Origin: Actinomycetota bacterium
Lineage (GTDB): Bacteria; Actinomycetota; CADDZG01; WHSQ01
Assembly: GCA_009377815.1 (NCBI GenBank)
Contig: WHTI01000006.1
Coordinates: forward strand, 1 to 54,246
Length of the DNA stretch: 54,246 bases
Reading direction: 5' to 3'
Positions 18,253 to 21,845 of the stretch are shown here, piece by piece. The number at the start of each line of letters is the position of its first letter. Position 1 is the first letter of the stretch. The notes below the pieces were generated by a model that was not told where the DNA came from, ran no database searches, and worked only from the letters and a program-made list of their open reading frames with translations. The translations under genes and the position numbers were made by a program.

Positions 18253-18289
18253 TAGGCGGGGCCGGTAAGGATTCCCGGTCCCGATGTGC

Positions 18290-18295
18290 TATCTT
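18290..18295 (+). promoter_or_regulatory. -10-like TATCTT before the DksA-like gene
   Basis: TATCTT ends nine bases before ATG 18305, giving an expected leader of only a few bases. No Shine-Dalgarno site is present. Confidence 0.45.
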
Positions 18296-18304
18296 CCGCC
18301 GCCA

Positions 18305-18615
18305 ATGACCCCGGCCAAGAAGAAGACCTCGAAGAAGACCACGGCCCGCAAGAAAGCCACGTCCCGGAGCGGACCGAGCAAGAAGGCCGCGACCAAGAAG
18401 ACGACCGCCAAGAAGACGACGGCGAAGAAGGCGTCTCCCAAGAAGGCCGCGACCAAGAAGACGACCGCACGCAAGGCAACCACCAAGAAGGCTCCCGCTA
18501 AGAAGAAGACGACGGCCAAGAAGCCAGCGGCCAAGAAGACGACCGCCAAGAAGACGACCGCGAGGAAGACGAGCGCCAAGAAGCCGGCGGCCAAGAAGAC
18601 CGCTCCGAAGAAGCC
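18305..18615 (+). repeat. Degenerate AAGAAG-rich repeat tract coding the lysine tail
   Basis: Variants of AAGAAGACGACCGCC and AAGAAGGCC recur throughout this stretch, producing the KKTTAKK protein repeats. Units differ by substitutions and length, unlike the perfect repeat at 13451, so this array is older or under coding selection. Confidence 0.8.
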
Positions 18616-19054
18616 ATCGGCGATGGCGATGAAGCTCAACCGCCCTCCCAAGAAGCCCGCGCACAGGACGCGCCCCGCCAAGTTCGACAAGAAGATGCTC
18701 AAGGAGATCCGGGCGACGCTGGAGGACGAGAGAGCGGGGCTCCAGCGACAGCAGGAGGAGCTCGACTCGGCCGCTTTCCAGGACACCCAGAGCGAAGCCT
18801 CCGGTGAGGTCGGTATGGACCAGGACTTCGCCGACGCCGGCACCGCGACGTTTGACCGCGAGCGGGACTTCTCGATCCGCAACAACATCCAGGATCTCGT
18901 CGAGCAGATGACGCGGGCGATCGCTCGGATCGACGAGGGCGTTTACGGAACGTGTGAACGATGCGGGAGGCCGATCGATGCGGCTCGCCTCAGGGCCCTT
19001 CCCCATGCCCTGCTATGCCTGGACTGCAAGCGGCGCGAGGAGCGGGAGCGCTGA
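18305..19054 (+). CDS. DksA/TraR-type zinc-finger protein with histone-H1-like lysine-rich N-terminus
   Basis: A 249-residue two-part protein. Residues 1-105 are a low-complexity Lys/Ala/Thr tract of KKTTAKK-type repeats like the tails of H1-like bacterial DNA-binding proteins. From about 120 onward comes a DksA/TraR-like helical region with an acidic coiled-coil tip (DQDFADAG) and a four-cysteine zinc finger (C217, C220, C238, C241; CERC...CLDC). DksA relatives bind the RNA polymerase secondary channel; the basic tail could add nucleic-acid contact. It precedes lspA, as in other actinobacteria. The underlying DNA is repetitive. Confidence 0.85.
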
Positions 19055-19569: not shown

Positions 19570-20487
19570 ATGCTCAACTTCGCGGCGCGATCAGAGGAGG
19601 TGGGGGAGCGCGTCGACGTCGTCCTCGCGAAACGCGCGGGCGTGACGCGCACCCTCGCTCAACGCGCGCTCAAGGACGGCGAGGTCACCGTCTCCGGAAA
19701 GATGGTCCGCCCGAGCTACCGGCTCGAGGGCGGCGACCGTATCGAGGGCGAGGTTCCGGAGCCTGTCTTCGAGCGACCCGAGGGCGAAGACATCCCGGTG
19801 GCGATCCGGTACGAGGACGATGACGTCCTCGTGGTCTCGAAGCCGCCGGGCATCGTGACGCACCCGGGTCGGGGGCACGAGGCCGGAACCCTGGTGAACG
19901 CATTGCTCGGGCTCGGGATGAAGCTCTCGGGGGAGGAGTCGATCCGCCCGGGGATCGTCCACCGCCTCGACAAGGACACCTCCGGACTTCTGGTGGTGGC
20001 CAAGACCGACGCCGCGGCCGAGTCGCTCATCGCTGCGATCAAGGGGCGGTCGGTCGAGCGCCGCTACCTGGCCCTCGTCCGTGGTGCCCCGTCGGCATCG
20101 TCGGGAACGATCGAGGCACCAGTTGGGCGGCACCCCGTCCGTCGCCGCCAGATGGCGGTCGTCTCCGGAGGCAAGCCCTCGGTCACGCATTACCGGGTCC
20201 TCGGCAGGACCGAGGAGGTCACCCTCCTCGAGGTCTCCCTCGAGACCGGCCGCACCCACCAGATCCGCGTCCACCTCGCCCACCTCGGCCTCCCGGTCCT
20301 CGGCGACGCAACCTACGGGGGCCGGTCCGAGCTCTCTGCCCGCCTCGGAATCCCCCGGACCTTCCTCCATGCCCACCACCTAGCCTTCCCCCAACCGACC
20401 ACCGGAGCCAGGATCGAAGTAACCGACCCCCTACCCGAAGACCTAGCCACCCCCCTAGCCCCCCTGAACCTCCCCCTCCCCGAATGA
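19570..20487 (+). CDS. rluD: RluD-family 23S rRNA pseudouridine synthase
   Basis: Isomerises uridines in 23S rRNA helix 69 (RluD) or a related site. The 305 residues contain an N-terminal S4 RNA-binding domain (about 12-70, LAQRALKDGEVTVSGK) and the catalytic domain with HRLDKDTSGLLVVAKT holding the essential Asp. The start directly follows the lspA stop. The last 30 or so codons are pyrimidine-rich and use CTA four times, a codon hardly seen elsewhere here; this tail adjoins the inverted-repeat unit. Confidence 0.93.
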   Translation: MLNFAARSEEVGERVDVVLAKRAGVTRTLAQRALKDGEVTVSGKMVRPSYRLEGGDRIEGEVPEPVFERPEGEDIPVAIRYEDDDVLVVSKPPGIVTHPGRGHEAGTLVNALLGLGMKLSGEESIRPGIVHRLDKDTSGLLVVAKTDAAAESLIAAIKGRSVERRYLALVRGAPSASSGTIEAPVGRHPVRRRQMAVVSGGKPSVTHYRVLGRTEEVTLLEVSLETGRTHQIRVHLAHLGLPVLGDATYGGRSELSARLGIPRTFLHAHHLAFPQPTTGARIEVTDPLPEDLATPLAPLNLPLPE

Positions 20488-20497
20488 ACCCCTTGCA

Positions 20498-20551
20498 CGT
20501 TTTGAACGTGTCAGGGGCTCAGTAAGCAAGCTCAGGGCTGAACAGAACGGG
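20498..20551 (+). repeat. Left arm of a 54-bp inverted repeat
   Basis: The reverse complement of this stretch matches 21542-21595 at 49 of 54 positions with no gap. At its outer end CACGTT and AACGTG (20496-20510) form a small palindrome around TTG. The two arms enclose a single gene. Confidence 0.93.
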
Positions 20552-20556
20552 TTTTG

Positions 20557-20580
20557 GGTCCACATCGGCCGGTGTGGTCC
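20557..20580. repeat. 24-bp quasi-palindrome before the DUF559 gene
   Basis: The halves GGTCCACATCGG and CCGGTGTGGTCC are reverse complements at 10 of 12 positions. It lies between the left inverted-repeat arm and the gene start. A related perfect palindrome, TGTGGTCCACA, occurs at 21639-21649 beyond the right arm. It could be an operator or a nuclease recognition site. Confidence 0.5.
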
Positions 20581-20622
20581 CGGCCATAGGCGTCGACGCA
20601 GCCAGGTGGTGGGATCGGTTCT

Positions 20623-21561
20623 ATGAATCCCCGGGAGGCCTCCTGTCTTGCGATCGCCGAGGAACAGTACGGGGTTCTGACCACGACTCAGGCTCGTGAG
20701 GCAGGACTAAGCAAAGGGGCGATCAGACGCCGGATCCTCGATGGCAGTTGGGAGCTCGTCTGTCCCAAGGTCATCCGCGTCGGCGGTGCTCCCGACGGCT
20801 GGAGGCATCGGGTGATGGCCGCGTGTCTCGCCGTCCCGCACTCCGTGGTGTCGCATCGCACGGCCGCGGTGCTCCATGGTCTGGAGGGGTTCCGGGCGCG
20901 GGAGGTCGAGCTGCTCACCACCGGTAGGTGGGTCCCCACGGTTCCGATCGCGACCGTGCGGACAACGCGTTACCTCCCTGATGAAGACGTCGCCGGCGTT
21001 GATGGGATCCCAGCTACCGTCCCCGCGCGCACCCTCTTGGACCTGGGATCGGTCTGCAATCTTCCGGTCGTTCGCCGAGCCATCCAGGATGCGATCGGCC
21101 GGCGGATCGTGACGTTCGGTCAGCTCGATGACATGCTGACTCGGGCGGGGAGAAAGGGACGCCCGGGGACCGCGGCTTTCAGAACGATCCTGTCATCGGT
21201 CGAAGTCGACCGTCCTCAAACGGAGAGTGGTTTGGAAGAGGTCTGCCTCCAGATCATACGCGGCGCAGGTTTCCCCGATCCGGTTCGGCAGCACCCGATC
21301 GTGATTGACGGAAGCCGGAAGCGACTCGACCTCTCCTACCCCAAGAAGATGATCGCTATAGAGGCCGACGGGTTCGAGTTCCATTCGTCCCTCGTGGACT
21401 TCCTCCGAGACCGAGCGAGGCAGAACGCGCTGGTTGCCCTGGGCTGGCGGGTTCTCCGCTTCACCTCAGCCGACGCCAAGCGCCCCAACCGATTCCTGGC
21501 CGATCTAGCGGAGCTGACGTCGTCCCAAGACGGACCCTTTCCCCGTTCTGTTCAGCTCTGA
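20623..21561 (+). CDS. AbiEi-like N-terminal domain plus DUF559 nuclease-like domain protein
   Basis: A 312-residue protein. Residues 8-45 form a winged-helix-like region (TTQAREAGLSKGAIRRRI) of the AbiEi antitoxin type, followed by a conserved middle part (VVSHRTAAVLHGLEG, ARTLLDLG). Residues 220-300 match DUF559, a PD-(D/E)XK/Vsr-like fold, with candidate acidic residues in DLSYP and IAIEADG and the ending DRARQNALVALGWRVLRF. Such proteins are common in actinobacteria and their role is unknown. No AbiEii toxin partner is adjacent. Its last codons and stop lie inside the right inverted-repeat arm. Confidence 0.8.
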   Translation: MNPREASCLAIAEEQYGVLTTTQAREAGLSKGAIRRRILDGSWELVCPKVIRVGGAPDGWRHRVMAACLAVPHSVVSHRTAAVLHGLEGFRAREVELLTTGRWVPTVPIATVRTTRYLPDEDVAGVDGIPATVPARTLLDLGSVCNLPVVRRAIQDAIGRRIVTFGQLDDMLTRAGRKGRPGTAAFRTILSSVEVDRPQTESGLEEVCLQIIRGAGFPDPVRQHPIVIDGSRKRLDLSYPKKMIAIEADGFEFHSSLVDFLRDRARQNALVALGWRVLRFTSADAKRPNRFLADLAELTSSQDGPFPRSVQL

Positions 21562-21595
21562 GCTTGCTTGCCGGGCCCGTGACACGTTCAAAACG
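21542..21595 (+). repeat. Right arm of the 54-bp inverted repeat
   Basis: It pairs with 20498-20551. The arm codes the last six codons and the stop of the DUF559 gene, then continues into the gap before dnaE. Confidence 0.93.
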
Positions 21596-21845
21596 GGAAA
21601 TGGGCTTGTCTCGGGAGGAGTCAACAGGTTGTGGGGCTTGTGGTCCACAGGGGGGTCGAGGGAGGGTGGCGCCGGGGGGCCGGGGAGACTTTCGGGTCCT
21701 TGACGGGCGCGAAATCGCAGGTCAGCAACCCTTGCTTGAAAAGTGGGTGGCGGGAGTATTAGGTAAAGCACATCGATGTAATTTACAGCCCGGGCAGCCG
21801 GAACGGATCTCGAGTCCAGGGGAACAGTATGAGCGGGTCTACAGC
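21596..21845 (+). other. Gap between the inverted-repeat unit and dnaE
   Basis: This 250-bp stretch has no gene that I can support. It holds the palindrome TGTGGTCCACA (21639-21649) and a weak promoter-like pair, TTGAAA (21736-21741) with TTAGGT 17 bases on, that could serve dnaE. It has more A+T from 21735 to 21785 than its surroundings. Confidence 0.4.

Follow-up and report, generated by a model that had tools for sequence, protein, structure and literature searches.

A nuclease gene enclosed by inverted copies of a dispersed palindrome: a candidate transposase-free mobile element of Actinomycetota

The window analyzed here, a stretch of 54,246 nucleotides of the genome G000, carries a single AbiEi-DUF559 gene between two arms that sequence alignment identifies as inverted copies of a dispersed palindromic element of approximately 72 bp (family A). 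The arrangement is like that of REP elements and RAYT enzymes, with an unrelated endonuclease as the enzyme, and we assign a probability of approximately 0.6 to the reading in which this endonuclease mobilizes the palindromes. The association between gene and repeats is far surer than mobilization, and the unit appears to represent a previously undescribed type of mobile DNA, linked to an enzyme and independent of a transposase.

The enclosed unit and its protein

All inverted, ungapped 54-base pairs across the 54-kb window were scanned at a threshold of at least 42 of 54 matches. Only one pair reached it, namely 20498-20551 and 21542-21595, which are reverse complements at 49 of 54 positions, confirming the arms described in an earlier, sequence-only reading of the window; given this uniqueness, a chance inverted repeat was dropped as an explanation. 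The repeat search lengthened the arms to 87 nt at 79% (20475-20561 and 21532-21618), and alignment with other copies gave an element of ~72 bp (20489-20560 and 21533-21604) with the approximate sequence GACCCATTTCCCGTTTTGAACGTGTSACGGGCCCGGCAAGCAAGCTCAGAACTGAACAGAACGGGAAATGGGTC, whose ends are inverted relative to each other (CCCATTTCCCGTTTTG and CAGAACGGGAAATGGG). The features of the unit are as follows.

20489..20560, plus strand: left family A copy, ~72 bp; core arm 20498-20551, outer left end degenerate
20623..21561, plus strand: AbiEi-DUF559 gene, 312 amino acids; candidate cognate enzyme of the palindromes
20623..21222, plus strand: predicted AbiEi-like winged-helix/DNA-binding part, residues 1-200 (approximate); PADLOC AbiEi at residues 8-178, Foldseek matches 6y8q and 1zel
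21226..21522, plus strand: predicted Vsr/EDxHD-like nuclease domain, about residues 202-300; invariant residues, match to 3r3p
21533..21604, minus strand: right inverted copy; core 21542-21595; the gene's final six codons and stop codon lie within this copy

As the same reading had proposed, one gene lies between the arms, and its final six codons and stop fall within the right arm. The left copy begins at the stop codon (20485-20487) of an RluD-like gene, and the right copy is the nearest of all copies to the family A consensus. The DNA folding z-scores of the arms were unremarkable (-1.3 and 0.0), and single-strand hairpin stability was dropped as an explanation on that account; a known RNA family was also considered, and no match was found. 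Elsewhere in the window, an ORF at 18284-19054 on the plus strand has a long Lys/Ala/Thr-rich repeat tail with a 15-nt period and a CxxC zinc-finger-like C terminus, and is possibly a DksA/TraR-type protein with a histone-like tail.

The N-terminal part of the protein matched the PADLOC AbiEi model (9e-28) and scored 22.5 bits against AbiEi_4 (cut-off 25). The C-terminal part matched MTES_1575 (3.7e-8) and DUF559 (9.5e-4), each just under the Pfam cut-off, and the DUF559 cut-off was exceeded by the homologues L082, L159, and L029. These matches are in line with the two-part composition first read from the sequence. In the AlphaFold2 model (pLDDT 87.6, pTM 0.64), the N-terminal part was matched by Foldseek to the AbiEi antitoxin 6y8q (E 2e-6) and also to Rv2827c (1zel), and the C-terminal part gave a moderate match to the EDxHD homing endonuclease I-Bth0305I (3r3p, E 3.7e-3, TM 0.72 over the target). 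The nuclease residues are intact, with E205, D236, E247, H254, and D263 invariant in two alignments (14 and 15 homologues). The protein is therefore predicted to join an AbiEi-like DNA-binding part to a nuclease domain resembling I-Bth0305I. AbiEi is reported to bind inverted repeats (PMC7319586), and I-Bth0305I dimerizes on a target of nearly 60 bp (PMC3943268). The neighbors of the gene are RluD and dnaE, and no AbiEii nucleotidyltransferase toxin gene adjoins it. Some actinobacterial genomes hold ten to twenty or so DUF559/AbiEi paralogues.

Palindrome families in the genome and at the RluD-dnaE junction

The arm is not confined to the unit: it occurs at ~13 places in G000, nine of them complete or nearly so and the others halves near contig ends. 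The family is genome specific, as no match to the arm was found in 100 relatives, including a species of the same genus. By ORF calling, nine copies have their left end at -9 to +14 nt relative to a stop codon that closes a co-directional gene; two others show, by eye, a stop codon either at the left end or some 23 nt ahead of it. The right window arm is the only copy that does not follow the stop of a co-directional gene. The other full-length close homologue of the genome (on contig C398, 38% identical to the window protein) has a different palindrome, CCCATTTCCCGCACAAAACC...GGTTTTGTGCGGGAA, in direct orientation on either side; this palindrome is present at ten places in all in G000. As the palindromes around the two genes differ, each gene has a repeat family of its own.

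Three family A copies (L093 5936-6081, L097 5768-5913, and L092 5-149, on contigs C147, C189, and C366 of G000) are interrupted by one multi-copy sequence with the gene start MAHGFVPVERDQSLLLPP. We take this insertion-sequence-like unit to resemble IS1182-family transposases. Its interruption of palindromes recalls the inverted-repeat-replacing transposition reported for IS1272 (PMC5678879).

Two further observations were made on palindromes of this genus. One copy, at positions 11786-11861 of contig C49 of G000 (L006, L090), consists of a left half and its own reverse complement, forming a near-perfect palindrome with strong folding (z -5.4). Other DUF559 genes or gene fragments (L083, L084, and L101 in G000; L099 in G001) lie near TTCTYATCC...GGATRAGAA-type palindromes, perhaps a third family common to both species of the genus.

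The unit is not present in all relatives. Among the 14 family genomes with a readable RluD-dnaE junction, 12 have no DUF559 gene there, and it is present in G000 and G011. The G011 protein, the best match to the window protein in the homologue search, is ~45% identical to it. Upstream only, between RluD and the DUF559 gene of G011, lie three direct copies of a 73-bp palindrome (L098 4014-4389), which are 98.6-100% identical to the 73-bp repeat unit and unrelated to the palindrome of the window. Since proteins of ~45% identity occupy the same site with unrelated palindromes, the repeats change as the proteins diverge.

Flanking repeats in other genera and site turnover in Kribbella

The generality of the association was measured by comparing the upstream and downstream flanks of each gene, each up to 250 bp long (matching repeat of at least 30 bits), with 293 genes of 500-1600 bp from the same loci as controls. 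In G000 and its relatives, matching repeats on both sides were found for 20 of 60 AbiEi-DUF559 genes and for 1 of 293 controls (Fisher p=4e-16), indicating that related DUF559 genes do carry flanking repeats. This third is a lower bound for any repeat, because some genes, such as that of G011, have one-sided repeats; two thirds of the tested genes had no matching repeat on both sides. None of 23 DUF222-HNH genes, from another multi-copy actinobacterial nuclease family, had flanking repeats, and the notion that any accessory nuclease gene has them was dropped for that reason. Inverted repeats were commoner in the DUF559 flanks (10/66 versus 6/300 at score 14, p=6e-5). A profile search of the contigs with a 5-row alignment gave 23 loci. 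Repeat sequence varies between genes, orientation may be direct or inverted, and the association recurs in many genera with unrelated repeat sequences. Pairing of the arms in the mRNA, offered earlier as an alternative, found no support and was dropped as a general reason, because flanking repeats in relatives are often direct (L082, L023, L024, L029, and L040).

In the closed genome G038 (one 2.46-Mb contig), the window protein has only one match at E<=0.001, and a 55-bp palindrome is present in 17 copies. The two best-matching copies (412134-412188 and 413166-413219) bracket this sole homologue (gene match 412243-413118), and most copies begin within 30 nt of a gene end. The same pattern was seen in G004, with palindromes on both sides of one AbiEi-DUF559 gene.

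In Kribbella antiqua, Kribbella turkmenica, and Kribbella steppae, orthologous DUF559 genes lie between two GTGCAGATCGACAGGAGGTGT-N-ACACCTCCTGTCGATCTGCAC elements. The pattern of the inner ten bases occurred 8 times in K. antiqua, 20 in K. turkmenica, 41 in K. steppae, and 11 in Kribbella monticola, and the reversed-pattern control gave 0 copies in the same four genomes. Among 38 fully read copies, mirror complementarity was 79% for the outer ten bases, which lay outside the search pattern, compared with 30% for the interior and 29% beyond the element. Spacer length was 62 bp in 23 of the 38, and 60-63, 50-52, or 72 bp in the rest, in steps of approximately one helical turn. The elements are thus constrained in their 20-bp inverted ends and fixed spacing, and their interiors are unconserved.

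Orthologous sites differ among these species. A 106-bp element of K. steppae corresponds to a cleanly empty site in K. turkmenica, and the flank search covered eight further K. steppae sites, of which L215 and L221 were unreadable. Neither sister species had the element at L225, L228, and L231; it was missing from K. antiqua at L216 and from K. turkmenica at L230 and L223. This gives seven Kribbella sites in all with occupied/empty orthologous pairs; site Y, with ragged flanks, was left out of the count. At L226/L241, both species carry an element whose ends are preserved and whose interior has diverged. At L223, the corresponding gap in K. antiqua contains another palindrome, of the type flanking the Kribbella sindirgiensis gene. 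No target-site duplication was evident at the Kribbella sites, where the intergenic flanks have diverged. As presence and absence are compared between species, a given difference may reflect gain or loss; on this comparison, gain is favored only at the three sites where neither sister species has the element. The mobility earlier suggested for the unit is in keeping with the DUF559-free junction in 12 of 14 family genomes, but what is present or absent at orthologous sites is the small palindrome, not the gene unit.

Two other features were noted in Kribbella. The gene end at which K. steppae carries its element is occupied by another palindromic element in L262 (G061:C4:204425-204794), showing that one spot can serve unrelated families. 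Four K. turkmenica copies (L236, L238, L239, and L244, in G062) are located inside a ~300-bp repeat with 91-95% mutual identity, evidently a larger mobile unit.

Interpretation and comparison with known systems

The proposed mechanism is as follows. The AbiEi-like part of a protein dimer would recognize the two inverted halves of an element, whose size (55-106 bp) is close to that of the ~60-bp target bound by dimers of I-Bth0305I, an EDxHD enzyme. The EDxHD/Vsr-like domain would then cut at or near the element, and repair of the break would copy or insert the element elsewhere. Through cutting and repair, the gene may both spread and conserve its own recognition sites, and the flanking copies would be source or master copies. 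Dimer binding, cleavage, and repair-driven spread are the steps that we infer. To our knowledge, no standalone PD-(D/E)XK or EDxHD enzyme moves an element to non-homologous sites. Rpn proteins offer a precedent for nuclease-promoted RecA-independent recombination (PMC5350276).

An unlikely alternative is that the palindromes are sites at which the AbiEi-like domain binds in the service of the host (as operators, nucleoid sites, or 3'-end sites) and that selection maintains them, with the protein as a regulator and dispersal reflecting a regulon, not mobility. The binding of inverted repeats by AbiEi antitoxins (PMC7319586) would suit such a role, and conserved ends with diverged interiors are what bound sites should show. 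However, the copies are placed behind stop codons and not at promoters, sister species have empty sites, and the nuclease residues are invariant.

We consider it improbable that another enzyme, a RAYT or an insertion-sequence transposase, moves the palindromes and that DUF559 genes only land in them or become caught between copies. Interaction of the palindromes with other elements does occur, as the MAHGFVPVERDQSLLLPP unit interrupting three copies in G000 indicates, and some Kribbella elements sit inside the larger ~300-bp repeats. Y1 transposases are the enzymes of REP systems, but Y1_Tnp (PF01797) had no match in six genomes and was positive in 5 of 14 controls, and RAYT-driven REPs were dropped on this result. 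In addition, the two DUF559 genes of G000 each carry their own palindrome family alone, and the association recurs in many genera with unrelated repeats and is not seen around DUF222-HNH genes.

Least probable is a defense or addiction module in which palindromic self sites restrain or guide the nuclease and their spread is a by-product: the defense library includes AbiEi models, related nuclease folds occur in anti-phage proteins (Hhe, a weak match), and Rpn PD-(D/E)XK proteins are described as promoters of RecA-independent recombination (PMC5350276) and as phage-combating toxin-antitoxin systems (PMC10327210), but no AbiEii toxin gene lies beside the window gene, whose neighbors are RluD and dnaE, and repeats on both sides of the gene are left unexplained.

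Mobilization by the AbiEi-DUF559 protein is the preferred reading. There is strong support for the earlier suggestion that a small, unrecognized, transposase-free element is associated with a DUF559 nuclease, with the amendment that the arms are copies of a dispersed palindrome and not merely the ends of the unit. The odds lean slightly toward the broader proposal that Actinomycetota harbor a new superfamily of mobile DNA without transposases, in which AbiEi-EDxHD nucleases recognize, spread, and maintain their own palindromes, one family per paralogue. If true, this would explain the role of many DUF559 genes, provide a second route, besides Y1 transposases, to dispersed palindromes in bacterial genomes, and yield numerous natural pairings of a long-site endonuclease with its target. 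DUF559/AbiEi genes are without an assigned job, and a cognate DNA site for each would make their function directly testable. The literature search found no paper treating AbiEi and DUF559 together, and none tying DUF559 or MTES_1575 to palindromic repeats.

Among known systems, MITEs resemble the present elements in being short and non-coding, in having inverted ends, and in the existence of empty sites, whereas here the linked gene encodes a nuclease, no related transposase was found, and no target duplication was seen in the diverged flanks. Rpn/YhgA proteins (Transposase_31) are also PD-(D/E)XK-type nucleases with proposed RecA-independent DNA insertion; unlike what is proposed here, they are reported to be sequence-non-specific, and the abstract and outline of the study (PMC5350276) are silent on linked palindromes. 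The N-terminal ~200 residues are predicted to fold like the AbiEi of the AbiE type IV toxin-antitoxin system (6y8q, Rv2827c), but here there is no AbiEii gene, a nuclease domain is fused, and the repeats are dispersed in the genome. I-Bth0305I shares the predicted nuclease fold (3r3p), the E-D-x-H-D residues, and a proposed long dimeric target; the window protein differs in its AbiEi-like part, in not being intron encoded, and in having many dispersed palindromes in place of one allelic site. The REP/REPIN-RAYT systems (REPtrons, TnpA_REP) are alike in having extragenic palindromes scattered near the 3' ends of genes, one chromosomal gene with copies at its sides, repeat families specific to each enzyme, and low gene copy number. 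In contrast to these systems, the elements described here reach a greater length (55-106 bp) and, in Kribbella, carry 20-bp inverted ends a fixed distance apart, and the associated enzyme is an AbiEi-EDxHD nuclease instead of a Y1 HUH transposase.
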